From NCBI RefSeq assembly GCF_006337065.1, contig NZ_CP040872.1:3162001-3226000 (forward strand): a stretch of 64,000 nucleotides of DNA. Reading direction: 5' to 3'. This stretch comes from Agromyces laixinhei. GTDB lineage: Bacteria; Actinomycetota; Actinomycetes; Actinomycetales; Microbacteriaceae. A program made the position numbers and the translations under genes. Numbering within the stretch: position 1 is the stretch's first letter; every line of letters starts with the position of its first letter. Positions 4,359-11,395 of this stretch are shown here, one piece after another. The notes beneath the pieces are model-generated. The model did no database searches. It worked only from the letters and a program-made list of their open reading frames with translations, and was not told the DNA's origin.

Positions 4359-5135
4359 TTACGCGAGCCGGTTCTGGACGAGGTACTCGGCGAGGCGCTC
4401 GCCGGCATCGCCCTCGTCGACGATCTTGGTGCCCGCAGCGCGCGGCGGCTTCTCGGCGAGCGAGATCACGATCGAGCGCGACGCGTCGGTGGTCTCGGCA
4501 TCGATGCCGAGGTCGGCGAGCGAGAGCGTCTCGAACGGCTTCTTCTTCGCCGCCATGATGCCCTTGAAGTTCGGGAACCGGGCGTCGGGCAGGCGCTCGG
4601 TGATCGAGACCACCGCGGGCAGCGTCGCGGTGACCGCCATCGTGCCGTGGTCGCTCGCTCGCTCGCCGCGCACCTCGGCCTCGGTGATCTCGACCGTGTT
4701 CAGGCTCGTCGCGTTGGGCACATCGAGCATCTCTGCGAGCATCGCCGGAAGCACCCCGCCCGAGCCGTCGGTCGACTCGTTGCCCGCGATCACGAGGTCG
4801 AACTCGAGACGCTGCAGCGCGGCCGCGAGCACCTCGGCGGTGAGCCCGACGTCTGCGCCGAGGAGCGCCTCATCGGCGACCTGCACCGCGGCCGCAGCCC
4901 CCATCGCGAGCCCCTTGCGCACGGTCGCCGAGGCGGATTCGGGCGACATCGACAGCACGACGACCTCGGTGCCGGCGTGCGCGTCGGCGTACGAGAGCGC
5001 GACCTCGAGCGCGCGCTCGCTGATCTCGTCGAGCACGGTCTCGCTCGCCGCGCGATCGGCGATGCCGGTCTGCAGGTCGAGCTTGCGGTCTCCGTACGTG
5101 TCGGGGACCTCCTTGATCAGGACGACGATCTTCAT
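4359..5135 (-). CDS. etfB: Electron transfer flavoprotein, beta subunit
   Basis: This 258-aa protein begins [20 protein letters not shown], typical of EtfB, and has the AMP-binding signature region [20 protein letters not shown] (about residues 117-136). It pairs with EtfA encoded next. The start ATG follows GGAGCGGA. It is first in the operon, and the 5136-5299 region before it is shared with a divergent acyl-CoA dehydrogenase and holds a KstR2-like operator. Confidence 0.97.
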
Positions 5136-5165
5136 TCCGCTCCTTCGACGAGTCGTTCCATCCTA

Positions 5166-5179
5166 ACCAAGCACTTGTT
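5166..5179. promoter_or_regulatory. Candidate KstR2-type operator between etfB and the divergent acyl-CoA dehydrogenase gene
   Basis: The sequence ACCAAGCACTTGTT fits AnCAAGnnCTTGnT, the palindrome I recall for mycobacterial KstR2, at every fixed position. It sits 31 bp upstream of the etfB start and about 120 bp upstream of the dehydrogenase start. A KstR2-like regulator is encoded at the end of the etfB operon. Confidence 0.65.
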
Positions 5180-5299
5180 TGCCTGCATAGCGTCCGGTTT
5201 TGTGGGGTGGCGCCAAACCAGCTCGCGCAACCGCCGGTCGCGATCGTGGAACCCGCACAGTTCGGGATGCCCCCGAGCGTGCCGGGTTACGCTGCGGGC

Positions 5300-7096
5300 A
5301 TGAGTGGATTCCGACCCCCCGTTGCAGATATCGCCTTCACCCTCGAGCATGTCGTCGACTACGACGCCGTCGCGCAGCTGCCCGGATACGAGCACGCCGA
5401 CTTCGAGACGGTCTCAGAGGTGCTCGACGAGGTCGGCAGCTTCATGGCCGAGATGGTGGCTCCCACCAACCGTGCCGGCGACCTCGAGGGTTCGAAGCTG
5501 AACGCCGACGGCACCGTCACCACGCCGACGGGATTCAAGGAGGCGTACTCCGCCTACGTCGACGCCGGATGGGGATCGGTGCCGCTGCCCGAGGAGTACG
5601 GCGGCGGCGGGTTCCCGCGCTCGGTCGGCCTCGCCATCCAGGAGCTCACGACGACCGCGAACATGGCCTTCGCTCTCGCGCCGCTGCTCACGCAGGGTGC
5701 GATCGAGGCGCTGCTGCACTACGGCACCGACGAGCAGAAGCAGCAGTGGCTGCCGAAGATGGTCACGGGTGAATGGGCCGGCACCATGAACCTCACCGAG
5801 CCGCACGCCGGCTCCGACGTGGGCGCGCTCACCACGAAGGCCGTGAAGCGCGAAGACGGCACCTACGCCATCTCGGGCCAGAAGATCTTCATCACCTTCG
5901 GCGACCACGACCTCAGCGAGCAGATCGTGCACCTCGTGCTCGCACGCACGCCTGACGCGCCGGCCGGCACGAAGGGCATCTCGATCTTCATCGTGCCGAA
6001 GTTCCTAGTGAACGAAGACGGCTCACTCGGCGAGCGCAACGGCGTGCACACCGTCGGCGTCGAGCACAAGATGGGCATCCACGGTTCGCCCACGTGCGTG
6101 CTGTCGTATGAAGACGCGACCGGCTACCTCGTCGGCGCCGAGAACATCGGCATGCGCATCATGTTCGTCATGATGAACAGCGCCCGGCTCTCGGTGGGCA
6201 TGCAGGGACTCGCCGTGGCCGAGCGCGCCTACCAGCAGTCGCTCGACTACGCGCAGGAGCGCATCCAGGGCCGCGCCATCGGCGCAGCTCAGGACTCTCC
6301 CATCATCGACTTCCCCGACGTGCGGCGCATGCTCATGACGCAGAAGGCATACATCGCCGCCATGCGACGCATGATGCTGCTGACGGCGAGCTATACCGAC
6401 CAGTCGACCCACAACCCCGACTCCGCGACCCGCGCTCGTGCCGACGAGATCGTGGGTCTGCTGACCCCGATCTGCAAGTCGTTCGGCACCGACCTCGGCA
6501 ACGAGCTCACCTCGCTCGCGCTGCAGATCCACGGCGGCATGGGCTTCATCGAAGAGACCGGCGCCGCACAGCACTACCGTGACGTGCGCATCGCCGCGAT
6601 CTACGAGGGCACGAACGGCATCCAGGCCGCCGACCTCGTCGGACGCAAGCTCCCCGTGCGCGACGGGGCATCCGTGCTCGAGTTCATCGCCACCATGCGC
6701 GAACTCGACGGCGAGCTCGCTGCGGCCGGCGACGAATTCGCGTCGATCCGCACGCAGCTGAATGCCCAGCTCGACGCGCTCGAGCAGACGACGGCGTGGA
6801 TGCTCCGCACCGGCGCGACCGACCCGAACGCCGTGCTCTCGGGCTCGACGCCCTACCAGCGCATCTGGGGCCTCGTCGTGGGCGGATGGCTCATGGCGAA
6901 GTCGGCGCTCGCCGCTCGCGGACTCGATGACGACGGCATCGCCGAGACGCAGCTGCCGCTGGCCCGGTTCTACGCCGAGCAGCTGCTGCCGCAGGCCGCG
7001 GGCCTCGTCGGCGCGGCCACCGCCGGCTCGCGCGACCTGTTCGCGCTCGACGCCGCCGCGCTCGGCGACGCGTCGGTCCGCGGAGTGCGCGTCTGA
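5300..7096 (+). CDS. Acyl-CoA dehydrogenase, large FadE5-like form
   Basis: The 598-aa enzyme is longer than a normal 380-aa acyl-CoA dehydrogenase. It has an extra N-terminal segment (MSGFRPPVADIAFTLEHVVD) and a C-terminal extension after residue 460, as in the FadE5/FadE-type actinobacterial group. Visible motifs are NLTEPHAGSDVGALTT, SGQKIFITFG and the catalytic IYEGTNGIQ with Glu near residue 436. It probably oxidises saturated fatty acyl-CoAs and reduces ETF encoded by the divergent operon. I chose ATG 5300 because the family N-terminus begins there, although the frame is open further upstream. The shared divergent region and operator suggest joint control with etfBA. Confidence 0.95.
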   Translation: MSGFRPPVADIAFTLEHVVDYDAVAQLPGYEHADFETVSEVLDEVGSFMAEMVAPTNRAGDLEGSKLNADGTVTTPTGFKEAYSAYVDAGWGSVPLPEEYGGGGFPRSVGLAIQELTTTANMAFALAPLLTQGAIEALLHYGTDEQKQQWLPKMVTGEWAGTMNLTEPHAGSDVGALTTKAVKREDGTYAISGQKIFITFGDHDLSEQIVHLVLARTPDAPAGTKGISIFIVPKFLVNEDGSLGERNGVHTVGVEHKMGIHGSPTCVLSYEDATGYLVGAENIGMRIMFVMMNSARLSVGMQGLAVAERAYQQSLDYAQERIQGRAIGAAQDSPIIDFPDVRRMLMTQKAYIAAMRRMMLLTASYTDQSTHNPDSATRARADEIVGLLTPICKSFGTDLGNELTSLALQIHGGMGFIEETGAAQHYRDVRIAAIYEGTNGIQAADLVGRKLPVRDGASVLEFIATMRELDGELAAAGDEFASIRTQLNAQLDALEQTTAWMLRTGATDPNAVLSGSTPYQRIWGLVVGGWLMAKSALAARGLDDDGIAETQLPLARFYAEQLLPQAAGLVGAATAGSRDLFALDAAALGDASVRGVRV

Positions 7097-7111
7097 GCTG
7101 ACGACGCCGGC

Positions 7112-8005
7112 TCAACCGGCCGCGTCGGCGAACTCGCGCGCGACCTTCGCGACCTGGTCGACGTAGTCGTTGTCGTGGTTGTACGAGTAGACGGCGGCCC
7201 GCCACCCCTCGGAGCTGAGCATCGGACCCGATGCGCAGAGGTAGCGGGCCGTCGTGAGGGCGGCGTCGTCGATCTGGTGCGGGTCGGCCGCGCCGTCGCC
7301 GTTCGCGTCGGCGGCCCATTTCGCCCAGGTGGAGGGGATGAACTGCATCGGCCCGACCGCGCGATCCCACGTGGGGTCACCGTCGAGCTCGCCGCCGTCG
7401 GTGTCGGCGATCGTCGCCACGCCGTTGCCATCGAGGGCCCTGCCGATGATCGCGGGCCGGCTGTTGCCGCTCTCGTCGAGCTTCGAGGCGCCGTGGCTTC
7501 CGTGATCTGATTCGATGCTGCCGATGGCGGCGATCGTGGCCCACTCGAGGCCGCACTCGGCCTCCTCCTCGGAGATCAAGACGTGGGCGAGTGCATACGC
7601 CGTCAACGCGCGCTCGGGAATGCCCGTGGCCGCGGCGACTCGCGCGATCCACTCCGGGTCGACCGACGGCACCGATGCCGGCATCGCGTCGGGAAGGTCG
7701 GTCGGCTCATCGGTCTGCTCGGTGTTGCCCTCGAGCTGCTCGTTGTAGTCGTGGCCGTCGGGCGTCGTCACGGGCGGCATCGCCACGGCGGGGCCGTAGG
7801 CGTCTGGTGCGGCGAACCCGTCGGGGTTGGTCGCCATGCCGACGACGTTCACCGCGTAGACGACCCCGATCACGAGGGCTGTGGCCCCCGCCACGAGACC
7901 GATGATGCCGGCGCCGCGGCGCACGAGCTGCAACTTCGTCGCCCGGGTACCGCTCGGACGACGCTCGCCGTACTCGTCGGCGTCGAAGTCGTCGTTCCAG
8001 GACAT
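7112..8005 (-). CDS. Membrane-anchored lytic murein transglycosylase (SLT/MltB-like)
   Basis: The 297-aa protein has a short cytoplasmic N-terminus, one membrane segment (about residues 27-50, GAGIIGLVAGATALVIGVVY) and a Pro/Glu-rich linker. The transglycosylase domain follows, with the catalytic Glu in AIGSIESDHG, then AVGPMQFIPSTW and SYNHDNDYV, typical of the family. It would cleave peptidoglycan outside the membrane. The start at 8005 is supported by GGAGCG about 9 bp upstream; the frame is open further upstream but that part is basic low-complexity. It converges on the dehydrogenase gene with a 15-bp gap. Confidence 0.9.
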   Translation of the reverse strand: MSWNDDFDADEYGERRPSGTRATKLQLVRRGAGIIGLVAGATALVIGVVYAVNVVGMATNPDGFAAPDAYGPAVAMPPVTTPDGHDYNEQLEGNTEQTDEPTDLPDAMPASVPSVDPEWIARVAAATGIPERALTAYALAHVLISEEEAECGLEWATIAAIGSIESDHGSHGASKLDESGNSRPAIIGRALDGNGVATIADTDGGELDGDPTWDRAVGPMQFIPSTWAKWAADANGDGAADPHQIDDAALTTARYLCASGPMLSSEGWRAAVYSYNHDNDYVDQVAKVAREFADAAG

Positions 8006-8185
8006 CGGTGTCTCGCTCCGTTCGGGCGGTGGTTCAGGGTGCCCGCGGGGGTCGGTCGCCGGCTCGCTCGAAGCCCGGCGTCGATCTCCCCGCCTGCTCA
8101 GCGTACTCGCGTGCCGTGATCGCCGCACTCGGAGTGCACAGGCCCGCGGCGGACGGCGGGCTGCGGCAGTGGGCGGGCGCCCCGT

Positions 8186-9070
8186 CTACGTGATCGAACG
8201 CAGCGCGTACTGGCGCACGCGCACGAAGCGCGTCGCGGCGCACGTCGACAACAGGGGTTCGGAGCGGGTCTCCTCCAGCTCGACCACGATGTCGCCGCCT
8301 GCGCCGCTCGCGAGCCGAACGCGCCAGCCGGCGTCGGCGGCCTCCTCGGCGATCGGCGCGAACGACCCGATCCGATCGTCGCCCCACGCCTCGCGCGCGA
8401 AGTGCTGGGCGGCCTGCACCGGATGCGTCAGCGAGCTGCGCCCGCGGTATCGCTCGGGCACGAGACGCCCGTCGTCGAAGGCATCGGCGATGCGCACGGG
8501 GTCGCCGTCGTCTGCGTAGCCGTAGTAGAGCCCGTGCGGAAAGACCACCATGGTGCCGGCGAAGCGGTCGCCGCCGAGATGCGAGCACTCCCAGGCCTCG
8601 TCGGGGCGAGCCTCGGCGAGCGCGGTGATCACCCGGCGACCGCGCACGGCGCAGCACTGGTCGTGCCTGGCATGAGTGCAGACGCAATAGACGGGCCGTG
8701 TCGATGGGGTGCCGGTGGATCCGTCGAGCGGCACGTCGAGCAATGCCGCGGCATCCGCCGCCTCTCCCCACACGACGCTCTCGCGACCGGGCCGCGAATC
8801 GACGATCGCCCACCGCTGCGCGGCCGGAGTGCGGCGCCGGCCGGTGCGGCGGATCGCGAGGGGTCGCATGCCGGCCGCCTCGATGCGCCGCACCAGGGCG
8901 CGACCGAGTTCTCGGTCGAACGGCTCGTCGAGCAGCGCGTTCTGGCCCCAGCTTCCCACCACCTCGATGAGGAACCAGCGCAAGCCGCGCGGGCCGGTGC
9001 CGACGAGCGGATCGTTCCGCTCTCGGGCGCGATCGCTGCACGGCGCCCAGTGCTCGGCCGCCAGTGTCAC
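8186..9070 (-). CDS. Sucrase/ferredoxin-like family protein (thioredoxin-like [2Fe-2S] candidate)
   Basis: This 294-aa protein shows the Suc_Fer-like family signature VYCVCTHARHDQCCAVRGR (Cys129, 131, 139, 140) followed by ECSHLGGDRFAGTMVVFPHG (Cys162, His164). These conserved Cys/His residues suggest an iron-sulfur site in a thioredoxin-like fold. The family name is historical and does not imply sucrose cleavage. Its start overlaps the stop of the upstream JmjC gene by 4 bp (ATGA, 9067-9070), so it is the third gene of a coupled operon: repeat peptide, JmjC oxygenase, this protein. I infer that it could supply electrons or act in the same modification pathway; no direct evidence exists in the sequence. 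Confidence 0.85.
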   Translation of the reverse strand: MTLAAEHWAPCSDRARERNDPLVGTGPRGLRWFLIEVVGSWGQNALLDEPFDRELGRALVRRIEAAGMRPLAIRRTGRRRTPAAQRWAIVDSRPGRESVVWGEAADAAALLDVPLDGSTGTPSTRPVYCVCTHARHDQCCAVRGRRVITALAEARPDEAWECSHLGGDRFAGTMVVFPHGLYYGYADDGDPVRIADAFDDGRLVPERYRGRSSLTHPVQAAQHFAREAWGDDRIGSFAPIAEEAADAGWRVRLASGAGGDIVVELEETRSEPLLSTCAATRFVRVRQYALRSIT

Positions 9071-10302
9071 GCCGGAGCCACCACGAAGCCCTCGCGCACG
9101 AGCCGGCGCACGACGACGACCGCGCTCTCGGCGTCGAGCCCCGGCAGCTCGTCAGCCGAGACGGTATCGCCCGTTGCGAGCCGGAGCACGGCCGGCTCCG
9201 CCTCGACCGGAAGCGACAGCGTCTTCGTGCGCGCCACGATGCGCACCCGGTCGTCGATCGTCGTGACGCGAACCGGCAGCGACTCGCGCCACCGCACGGG
9301 CGTCGACCCGTCCAGCGCTGCGAGCGCCTCGACGGTCGCGAGCGGCGCGACCGGTTCTGCGCGGGTCTCGGCGCCGAAGCGAGCACTGAGCACGGCGACC
9401 GGCCGCGAGGCATCCGTCTGCTGCAGTGTCTCGACGAGCGCCTGCACCGTCTGCGCGACGATCGGCGCGAGCGCCTCGGAGTCGTGCAGGTCGAGGCCGA
9501 GCGGCAGCGACGCGCGCAACTCGGCGTTGTCGCCGAGTTGCCGGAGCAGTGCGTCGGCGAGGTCGGCGCGCGTGTAGGCGGCCATGCCGATGGTCAGGTG
9601 CACGGATGTCGCGCCGAGCGCCGTCGCCGAATGGATCCATCCGCGCGGCAGGTACAGCGCGTCTCCGGGTCGCAGCACCGCGTCGATCTCTGGTTCGCCC
9701 GTGGCCGCGCGTGCGACGGCGGCTCGGTGCTGGTCCCACGGCTGGCTGCGCAGCGGGTCGACCAGCACCGGCGCGTGGATGCGCCAGTGCTTCTCGCCCG
9801 AGATCTGCAGCACGAACACGTCGTGGGTGTCGTAGTGCGGGTCGAATCCCCGCGACGACGGCGGGGTGACGTAGGCGTTCACCTGCGCCGGGTGCCCGAG
9901 GTCGTCGACGAGTTCGCGCGTGAAGTCGATGATCGGCGGCCACAGCCGGTGCAGCCCCTGCAACACGATCGTCGCGCCGCCCGCGAACTCGGCGAGCACC
10001 TTGTCGCTCGAGACCTGGTCGGGGATCTCGGCGCCGAAGCCGCCCGACGCGGTGTAGTCGGACGCCGAGAGCACCGAGCCCTCGTTCGCCATGCGGATGA
10101 ACGGGGTGCGCACCCCGCGCCGCGTGACGAGTTCGTCGACGGCGGCTGCAGAGAAGAGGTCGCCGAAGCCGCGCTCGAGGTCGGCGGCCGTGGAGAGCAA
10201 CGGCTCGCGGCCCCAGTACCGCAGGCCGAATTCGTCAGGCGAGACCCGGATGCAGCGCGAAAGCGCGGGCCGACTGCTCGACCCGCGCTCGTGGCCGGTC
10301 AC
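9067..10302 (-). CDS. JmjC/cupin Fe(II)-2-oxoglutarate oxygenase (ribosomal-oxygenase-like)
   Basis: The 411-aa protein contains a JmjC cupin core with the metal triad His156-x-Asp158 (FDPHYDTHDVF) and distal His224 (LPRGWIHSAT). Between these is the double-stranded helix segment LQISGEKHWRIH. The same layout is found in bacterial YcfD/RoxA and human MINA53/NO66, which hydroxylate Arg or His in ribosomal proteins. A helical/winged C-terminal part follows. The GTG start overlaps the stop of the upstream repeat-peptide gene (10302-10304), and the downstream gene overlaps by ATGA, implying translational coupling of all three. The adjacent peptide, rich in His, Asp and Asn repeats, is an obvious candidate substrate (inference); a ribosomal protein is the alternative. 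Confidence 0.88.
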   Translation of the reverse strand: MTGHERGSSSRPALSRCIRVSPDEFGLRYWGREPLLSTAADLERGFGDLFSAAAVDELVTRRGVRTPFIRMANEGSVLSASDYTASGGFGAEIPDQVSSDKVLAEFAGGATIVLQGLHRLWPPIIDFTRELVDDLGHPAQVNAYVTPPSSRGFDPHYDTHDVFVLQISGEKHWRIHAPVLVDPLRSQPWDQHRAAVARAATGEPEIDAVLRPGDALYLPRGWIHSATALGATSVHLTIGMAAYTRADLADALLRQLGDNAELRASLPLGLDLHDSEALAPIVAQTVQALVETLQQTDASRPVAVLSARFGAETRAEPVAPLATVEALAALDGSTPVRWRESLPVRVTTIDDRVRIVARTKTLSLPVEAEPAVLRLATGDTVSADELPGLDAESAVVVVRRLVREGFVVAPA

Positions 10303-10559
10303 TACGCCGAGCCGTCGGCGCCGCCATCGTGGCCACCGGGGTTCGCACCGCCGTCGGCGGTACCCTCGCCCGCAGCCGCTGATCCGTCGGCGCCGCCATC
10401 GTGGCCGCCGGGGTTGGCGCCGCCGTCGGTAACGCCCTCGCCTTCGGCCGCGGAACCGTCGGCACCACCGTCGTGGCCCGTGGGGTTGGCGCCGCCGTCG
10501 GCAGTGCCTTCGCCCTCGGCGCCAGGCTCGCGGGTGATGTCGTCATCGTTGATCGTCAT
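10302..10559 (-). CDS. 85-aa peptide of three 24-residue Gly/Asp/His repeats; candidate substrate of the JmjC oxygenase
   Basis: The start ATG 10559 has AGAGGAAC upstream. A 13-residue leader-like acidic N-terminus (MTINDDDITREPG) is followed by three near-identical 24-residue units that run exactly to the stop codon. Each has the core DGGANP(T/G)GHDGGADGSA preceded by A(E/A)GEG. The composition (Gly, Ala, Asp, one His and one Asn-Pro per unit, no Cys or aromatic residues) is unlike a folded protein and suggests a repeated substrate or RiPP-like precursor. It is the first gene of the operon with the JmjC oxygenase and Suc_Fer-like protein, with overlapping stop/start codons. I do not recognise a named family. 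The frame continues upstream to 10682 but without an RBS. Confidence 0.75.
   Translation of the reverse strand: MTINDDDITREPGAEGEGTADGGANPTGHDGGADGSAAEGEGVTDGGANPGGHDGGADGSAAAGEGTADGGANPGGHDGGADGSA
10305..10520 (-). repeat. Three tandem 72-bp repeats inside the peptide gene
   Basis: Each unit encodes 24 residues, and the three units fill codons 14-85 of the peptide gene without interruption. Differences are a few substitutions (T/V, A/T, T/G, E/A), so the period is conserved at both DNA and protein level. Confidence 0.85.
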
Positions 10560-10671
10560 GAGAGTTCCTCTCTTCGCCTGCATGCACAGCGTATCGAGCG
10601 CATCTGCTCGGCGGAACGGGTTGACAGGGAAGGGCAGACGAGTGGCTGGGGCATCCGCGTCTCGGAGAAAT

Positions 10672-10682
10672 GTGTAGTACAC
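10672..10682. promoter_or_regulatory. Inverted repeat GTGTAGTACAC before the zinc-ribbon/MarR pair
   Basis: GTGTA-G-TACAC is a perfect 5-bp palindrome 10 bp upstream of the GTG at 10692, in the intergenic region shared with the divergent repeat-peptide operon. Its position over the likely promoter fits autoregulation by the MarR-type protein encoded second in the operon (inference). Confidence 0.45.
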
Positions 10683-10691
10683 TAACTATTC

Positions 10692-10928
10692 GTGCCCAAT
10701 GAAATGAATCCGTTCGCCGGCCGCCGGGGGTTCTGGAACCGGCTGAACCGCATCGTCTACACGTTCACCGGCCCCGCCCAAGTGGGCATCGGGCATGGCA
10801 AGACCGAGGCGCCCTACGAGCCGCCCGCGAATCCCAGGTGTCCGATCTGCGGCCGGCCGATGGCAGACCACGTCGTGCAGCGCGGTGACGCCAACTCGCC
10901 CACGCACCTGATCTGCCCCGGCCGATGA
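10692..10928 (+). CDS. Small zinc-ribbon protein (78 aa)
   Basis: A short basic N-terminus (NPFAGRRGFWNRLNRIVYTF) with a Pro-rich linker leads to CPICGRPM...HLICPGR. The C-x2-C plus the later Cys and His residues could bind one zinc. It starts with GTG at 10692, with an in-frame ATG at 10704; neither has a convincing RBS, so leaderless translation is possible. Its last codons overlap the MarR gene by ATGA (10925-10928), implying co-translation. Function unknown; a co-factor or partner of the regulator is a guess. Confidence 0.8.
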   Translation: MPNEMNPFAGRRGFWNRLNRIVYTFTGPAQVGIGHGKTEAPYEPPANPRCPICGRPMADHVVQRGDANSPTHLICPGR

Positions 10929-11395
10929 GCGAGACGACGAGCGGGTCCCAGGTCACGACCGGCGACCTGCTGCAACTGGATCAGCAGGTGTGCTTCGCGC
11001 TCGCGGTGGCATCCCGCAACGTGATCGCCCTCTACCGCCCGGTGCTCGAACCGCTCGGGCTGACGCACCCGCAGTACCTCGTCATGCTCGCACTCTGGGA
11101 GCAGAGCCCGCGCACCCTCGGCGGGCTCGGCGCGGAGTTGATGCTCGAGTCCGCGACGCTGACCCCGATCGTGAAGCGCCTCGAGTCCGCGGGCTTCGTC
11201 ACGCGAGCACGCAGCACGACCGACGAACGAGCACTCTCGATCGAACTCACCGATACCGGGCGGGCGCTTCGCGCCGAATGCCTCGCGGTGCCGCCGCAGA
11301 TCATCGAACGACTCGGACTGCCGGTCGACGAGCTCGAGCGCACGCGCGACGCGCTGCACCGGCTGATCGCCGCCGCGCATCCGCGCGCGAACTGA
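10925..11395 (+). CDS. MarR-family redox regulator, OhrR-like
   Basis: The 156-aa protein carries the OhrR-type N-terminal signature LDQQVCFAL...YRPVLEPLGLTHPQYLVML, with Cys23 at the peroxide-sensing position. The winged helix follows (LESATLTPIVKRLESAGFV, RSTTDERALSIELT). OhrR proteins release DNA when this Cys is oxidised by organic hydroperoxides. The usual partner ohr is not seen nearby; instead the gene is coupled to a zinc-ribbon peptide. GTGTAGTACAC upstream may be its operator. Confidence 0.88.
   Translation: MSETTSGSQVTTGDLLQLDQQVCFALAVASRNVIALYRPVLEPLGLTHPQYLVMLALWEQSPRTLGGLGAELMLESATLTPIVKRLESAGFVTRARSTTDERALSIELTDTGRALRAECLAVPPQIIERLGLPVDELERTRDALHRLIAAAHPRAN

Follow-up and report, generated by a model that had tools for sequence, protein, structure and literature searches.

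The ribosomal oxygenases (ROX) NO66/RIOX1, MINA53/RIOX2, and YcfD are 2-oxoglutarate-dependent oxygenases with a JmjC fold, and a winged helix is ascribed to MINA, NO66, and YcfD in a passage of PMC6182338. JmjC enzymes in clusters of ribosomally synthesized and post-translationally modified peptides (RiPPs) are already in print. In the passages concerned, BipG of biphenomycin biosynthesis is presented as an alpha-ketoglutarate/Fe(II)-dependent ornithine hydroxylase (PMC12707348), PbsQ and BpmG are relatives, and co-expression with PbsQ and PbsCDE is reported to give a mass change of +15.99 Da (PMC12257519). Furthermore, a passage of PMC12710340 describes PF08007 JmjC proteins with a fold like the RiPP recognition element (RRE) in fish and algae, and bacterial homologues of about 30% identity in RiPP-like contexts. 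Here, we analyzed a 64,000-nucleotide stretch of the Agromyces laixinhei genome (NZ_CP040872.1, positions 3,162,001 to 3,226,000; hereafter the window, in whose coordinates all features are given), which carries an operon encoding an Asp-rich repeat peptide, a ROX-type JmjC protein, and a Suc_Fer-like protein. Thus, a JmjC fold known from ribosomal oxygenases is here paired with a repeat peptide gene. The pairing resembles that of the biphenomycin-type clusters (BipG, BpmG, PbsQ), which, as described in the above passages, also encode a JmjC enzyme together with a short precursor peptide; the genes for a multinuclear non-heme iron-dependent oxidative enzyme, a B12-dependent radical S-adenosylmethionine enzyme, and an arginase that those passages place in such clusters do not recur in the 81 genomic tiles inspected around the present trio. 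The passage of PMC12710340 names neither a precursor family nor an Asp-rich repeat or a ferredoxin partner, and no description of the trio was found in the open-access PMC literature, subscription papers lying mostly outside the search; the peptide motifs gave only unrelated matches in the open-access literature. We propose, with a probability of roughly 0.58, that the operon is a compact RiPP-like unit in which the JmjC enzyme beta-hydroxylates Asp residues of the repeat peptide with the help of the ferredoxin.

All three genes lie on the minus strand and overlap successively by 1 and 4 nucleotides (nt). The first (10302-10559) encodes the candidate substrate, an 85-amino acid (aa) peptide consisting of a 13-aa acidic N-terminal segment, MTINDDDITREPG (10521-10559), which recurs in homologous peptides and is a candidate leader or recognition motif, and of three 24-aa repeats running up to the stop codon (tandem array at 10305-10520, period 72 nt, 3.0 copies, without indels). 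Its TAG stop shares one base with the GTG start of the JmjC gene (9067-10302; 411 aa, PF08007 E-value 3.6e-30) in a TAGTG junction (10300-10304), while the stop of the latter overlaps the start of the Suc_Fer gene (8186-9070; 294 aa) in a GTGA junction (9067-9070). This architecture, including the intact metal triad of the JmjC protein, is as the initial annotation had described it. The sequence AGAGAGG is placed 7 nt ahead of the peptide ATG. Six Agromyces orthologues of equal length gave, in 15 pairwise comparisons, nonsynonymous rates (dN) of 0.000-0.063 versus synonymous rates (dS) of 0.082-0.832, and because these differences are mostly silent, it is very likely that the peptide is translated and, judging from its codons, held by purifying selection for its sequence. 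A protein search revealed 134 homologous peptides at E≤1e-3, which, among the 120 matches listed, are named 'hypothetical protein' where their source gives a name, or 'BatC protein' in Leifsonia poae. Neither Pfam nor NCBIfam contained a model matching the window peptide, nor did NCBIfam contain one for five related peptides.

A functional link between peptide and enzyme is suggested by their co-occurrence. The JmjC protein alone was used as a query against 394 genomes sampled evenly across the class, and matches at E≤1e-15 were found in 124 of them, representing 57 of 137 genera. The survey comprised 103 loci, 93 from these 124 genomes and 10 (L002-L007, L009-L011, L014) from the search for relatives only; the remaining 31 genomes, all with weaker or partial matches (the best, in G152, being cut by a contig end), were left out. 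The loci were binned by their score against a profile of 120 close homologues, and a peptide was counted when a short, Asp-containing peptide rich in small residues (Asp, Gly, Ala) ended between -160 and +60 nt of the JmjC start, which was set by hand from match coordinates for L173, while the JmjC of L189 was left in two matched pieces. By this criterion, a peptide gene stands directly upstream of JmjC in 72/72 loci scoring at least 300 bits, 13/14 loci between 190 and 300 bits, and 0/17 loci below, whereas only 2 of 552 control gene starts were positive (L041, L084), in both cases because the start of JmjC had been misplaced and its own frame was counted. The peptide-positive loci are spread over 24 family codes. 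An earlier criterion (Asp at least 16% of the last 50 residues), which gave 43/72, 13/14, and 5/17 with 9/556 controls, was replaced since it missed evident peptides, including that of the window.

In other classes of the phylum, a peptide was found at 12 of 13 loci (12 genomes, G464 contributing twice; JmjC identity 35-40%); the search span was -220 to +60 nt, all positives fell between -12 and +28, and in the thirteenth locus, L228, no more than about 130 nt of contig precede JmjC. These 12 peptides contain 32-45% Asp in their last 40 residues. Within Agromyces, 37 genomes searched with each protein contained either the complete trio (10) or no member of it (27). The window peptide as a query missed the diverged peptides of G037, G040, G050, and G054, and in G051, where no JmjC was found, it gave a weak match (E 1.1e-4) inside an 838-aa frame. 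In the reverse direction, the DNA pattern DGG(A/S)-x5-DGGADG, with the N, P, x, G, and H positions left free, retrieved at least 119 tiles of named genomes. Among the matches listed, JmjC follows immediately in the same orientation in at least 93 of 119, and L067 and L133, where peptide and JmjC share a single open frame (fusion or frameshift), bring the number to 95; 9 tiles are cut off or masked ahead of the JmjC region, 14 are chance matches to long unrelated open reading frames (ORFs) or to no ORF, and one (L089) carries a peptide of this type but no JmjC behind it. The number of pattern matches varies from 1 to 7 per tile among the 80 tiles listed. A short precursor-like gene adjoining its putative modifying enzyme, a hallmark of RiPP loci, is therefore present here, and the trio behaves as a conserved unit, as the initial annotation had supposed. 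That annotation would have been refuted by JmjC genes that usually lack the peptide; the opposite was observed, as only the 17 remote relatives form a group lacking the peptide. The co-occurrence in close and middling relatives suggests an enzyme dedicated to the peptide, and because the pairing is so constant, the JmjC enzyme probably takes the peptide as its substrate, in agreement with the earlier proposal.

The JmjC protein, named 'cupin domain-containing protein' in the database, has an intact HxD...H triad (H156, D158, H224), which is kept in all 54 sequences of alignment A1 and over the 103 survey loci except for a gap at H224 in one. Its predicted model contains the elements of the ROX fold, that is the JmjC core, a helical dimerization part (about residues 245-329), and a C-terminal winged-helix-like domain (about 335-408). 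In the model, the C-terminal domain runs from strands to helices (335-403), the order that the passage of PMC12710340 requires of an RRE-like fold. Among proteins of solved structure, two His hydroxylases, NO66 and MINA53, are the nearest in sequence, and by fold NO66 leads. In a passage of PMC9994133, Tyr328 and Ser421 of NO66 are stated to hydrogen-bond the target His. Here, Tyr328 is retained as Y144, while Ser421 aligns with Gly239 (54/54 in A1, 72/72 and 14/14 in the upper two survey bins), so that the residue pair of an NO66-type His hydroxylase, as that passage gives it, is incomplete. The present JmjC further differs from the ribosomal oxygenases by the extra conserved residues R65, Q115, H118, and R339.

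The third protein is a probable thioredoxin-like [2Fe-2S] ferredoxin, with a PF06999 E-value of 1e-14 (55.5 bits versus a cut-off of 34.9). It was predicted by AlphaFold2 with 36 sequences at a predicted local distance difference test score (pLDDT) of 93.1 and a predicted template modelling score (pTM) of 0.91. Its best match among solved folds was the Aquifex thioredoxin-like [2Fe-2S] ferredoxin, a weak one (E 7.8e-3, TM-score 0.70 on the target), with no match below 1e-3. We nevertheless regard this match as sensible, because Aim32, which aligns with Suc_Fer proteins over its C-terminal part, is described in a passage of PMC8482512 as such a ferredoxin with CX8CXnHX3H ligands. Like the Aim32/Apd1 family of that passage, the present protein belongs to PF06999 and contains the CX8C motif (C131-x8-C140), which is conserved together with H164 in 36/36 sequences. 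Unlike that family as described there, it lacks the complete bis-His set, the second His (H164-x3-D168 here) being Asp in 34/36 and Cys in 2/36 sequences (Cys occupies the Asp168 position in the Geodermatophilus loci L026 and L065), it has the further invariant cysteines C11, C139, and C277, and it is encoded with an oxygenase and a peptide. Because the second His is replaced by Asp or Cys, all of them residues able to bind metal, the alignment suggests a variant cluster site. The gene follows JmjC in 61/72, 13/14, and 0/17 survey loci and in 12/13 loci of other classes, and phmmer found it in 43 of the 63 pattern tiles, among the matches listed, that extend more than 900 nt past JmjC. Suc_Fer genes were also present in G046, G052, and G058, genomes without a JmjC match.

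Which residue of the peptide would be modified was judged from the 85 survey cores. Asp (at least two residues in each), Gly, and Ala occur in all 85, Ser in 82, Pro in 79, Thr and Glu in 68 each, His in 61, and Asn in 34, while Tyr and Trp occur in one each and Phe and Cys in none, which also sets these cores apart from the biphenomycin-type peptides. The core types include EGTADGGSNPEGHDGGADG, DGGADGGADGG runs, GDADGTDGDATDTTDGDAS, and TDTDTTDSTDTDTTD. JmjC hydroxylases are known to act on Asn, Asp, His, Arg, and Lys, and Asp is the only one of these classical target residues that is found in all cores. The 12 peptides from other classes agree, with at least five Asp and a DG dipeptide in 12/12, His in 2/12, and Asn in 3/12. 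The initial annotation had pointed to His or Asn, as would also be expected if the enzyme acted like NO66 and MINA53 on His; for such a target speak the rank of these two as nearest solved relatives (NO66 also first by fold), the retained target-side Tyr as Y144, and the presence of one His and one Asn in every repeat of the window. However, both residues come and go: on a tree built from 95 JmjC proteins (78 accompanied by a peptide), at least 11 changes were counted for His and at least 8 for Asn, numbers that are approximate given a quick tree with long branches that omits L002-L006, L173, L189, and L196. Repeats of the type ATPGQ(H/Q/R)DGG in Micromonospora and AGGGSDGG in Geodermatophilus speak against such a target as well, and the Ser of NO66 has become an invariant Gly in 72/72 and 14/14 loci, so that hydroxylation of His and/or Asn in each repeat has, in our opinion, little chance of being correct. 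The idea that the core NPxGHDGG, which may resemble the loop of ribosomal protein uL2, could be a mimic of it was dropped, the Asn/His part not being universal.

The peptide could also be the substrate of another chemistry, for example crosslinking, modification of the Gly backbone or of Ala/Thr, or a second reaction carried out by the ferredoxin. Gly and Ala are indeed present in every core, but the residues suited to crosslinking (Cys, Tyr, Trp, Phe) are next to absent and Gly is reduced to a single residue in the L015 core, and we consider this explanation unlikely. Alternatively, the substrate might be a ribosomal or other protein, with the peptide assisting or regulating the JmjC enzyme as an acidic inhibitor, metal donor, or chaperone. 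The predicted fold and domain layout match those of ribosomal oxygenases, and a coupled small protein can act as a regulator. Against such a role, repeat number and sequence vary widely at a maintained composition, a pattern to be expected if the repeats are multi-copy cores and not if the peptide is a folded partner, and 27 of the 37 Agromyces genomes lack the gene. In a PF08007 search of 25 Agromyces genomes, the 6 with the trio scored at least 105 bits, whereas 12 of the 19 others gave no match and 7 only partial ones (at most 25.9 bits, frames of 146-231 aa); this distribution speaks against a housekeeping role in ribosome modification. A mere partner function appears quite improbable to us.

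We therefore return to Asp hydroxylation as the preferred reading. By analogy with known JmjC targets, Asp is the residue that we somewhat favor as the one modified; since Gly and Ala are as constant as Asp, this choice rests on chemical precedent. In the proposed mechanism, the Asp-rich repeat peptide would be made first, and translational coupling would yield its dedicated Fe(II)/2-oxoglutarate oxygenase alongside. The enzyme would perhaps dock the peptide via the C-terminal winged-helix domain and move along the repeats, hydroxylating the beta-carbon of Asp mostly in Asp-Gly contexts, and the resulting poly-(beta-hydroxyaspartyl) peptide would be expected to chelate metal ions well. The Suc_Fer ferredoxin might hold the iron of the oxygenase in its reduced state, keep the site loaded, or perform a second redox step; such a redox-helper role, like the electron supply suggested by the initial annotation, is tentative. 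Densely spaced beta-hydroxyaspartate would favor metal binding by the product, and cores of type B (DxDG) resemble calcium-loop fragments, though that the product binds metal at all is doubtful. In its widest form, which we regard as speculative, the proposal would describe a hitherto unrecognized, phylum-wide class of poly-(beta-hydroxyaspartyl) repeat peptides that act as encoded metal-binding polymers inside actinobacterial cells and are made by ROX-type JmjC enzymes, with a winged helix recognizing the peptide and a ferredoxin with a Cys2-His-Asp site maintaining the activity of the enzyme.

Several observations weigh against this reading. ROX enzymes of known substrate modify His or Arg in ribosomal proteins, and the equal universality of Gly and Ala (85/85) means that composition alone cannot single out Asp. 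The composition criterion of the survey was fixed after the peptides had been seen, so that the test in other classes is the only independent one. A DGGA-type peptide starting with NDDDIT in Dactylosporangium vinaceum (L089:7733-7999, minus strand) has no JmjC behind it, and the peptides of L182 and L185, two of the 72 close loci, are acidic and non-repetitive. Suc_Fer is missing from 11/72 close loci (2/2 of family f53, 4/5 of f47, and five others) and is thus not strictly required, being frequent yet dispensable; it was also not found in 20 of the 63 pattern tiles mentioned above, for which a less sensitive search was used. The acidic N-terminal motif, in the form (N/S/D)DD(D/E)(I/M), recurs in 61 of the 85 survey peptides but is absent by this expression from 24, some of which have very short N-termini; the earlier suggestion of a leader is supported only in part, and a conserved leader as a requirement was dropped. 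Furthermore, no conserved protease, transporter/exporter, or second modifying enzyme was found around the trio in the 81 tiles of up to 8 kb, a distant protease being possible, and since the leader motif is missing from 24/85 peptides as well, processing into a released product is unsupported. Some RiPPs have no protease in their cluster.

If the proposal is true, a trio now labelled 'hypothetical protein' or 'cupin domain-containing protein' would be a peptide-modifying pathway present in at least 75 of the 394 genomes (62 + 13 loci; 73 without the two non-repeat peptides), with relatives in other classes. Ribosomal oxygenases would thereby be connected to RiPP enzymes in a way that can be tested directly, a large group of bacterial JmjC_2 proteins would gain a candidate substrate, and a bacterial Suc_Fer protein would gain a role.

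Some further loci and neighbours were noted. The two non-repetitive peptides (L182, L185) end in DDPEL(A/S)GADL(D/P)EDQ(S/A)(E/D)G(R/Q)GPT(I/V)EPGA and are followed by a close-class JmjC without Suc_Fer. Among the remote relatives, the JmjC genes of family f35 (L199, L202, L206, L207, L209, L210, L212-L214) are preceded by short peptides whose C-terminal ends follow EVTSRDITAGGDNDGTDSSSDFI with slight differences, and L202 and L207 also have a prolyl oligopeptidase gene (PF00326) upstream; these loci form a second RiPP-like type of JmjC locus. Other short peptides, one ending in ICDPDPSDDCWIVCNPNYCY and one in GWDWDGTDGYFVTDPDPTDAAWHPA, stand upstream of the remote JmjC genes of L194 and L217. 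Spread by phages or plasmids was considered and rejected, as there was no phage match and all 46 plasmid records, 42 of them from Streptomyces, showed less than 60% identity; a JmjC relative of 32% identity is carried by the 707-kb Streptomyces clavuligerus plasmid NZ_CP065235.1 (165822-167036). Besides JmjC and Suc_Fer, no gene family recurred next to the trio in more than four genera in the 81 tiles (up to 8 kb), genus names having been entered by hand for this count. Downstream of the operon, the window contains ordinary genes (4359-8128), namely those for an electron transfer flavoprotein subunit (4359-5135, minus strand), an acyl-CoA dehydrogenase (5207-7096, plus strand), and an MltB-like lytic transglycosylase (7112-8128, minus strand). 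On its other side (10692-11395, plus strand), an ORF of 78 aa that weakly matches a zinc ribbon overlaps with a gene of the MarR type, whose nearest model is OhrR, below the cut-off of that model. These genes diverge from the operon, and the 132 bp between them (10560-10691) may hold both promoters.

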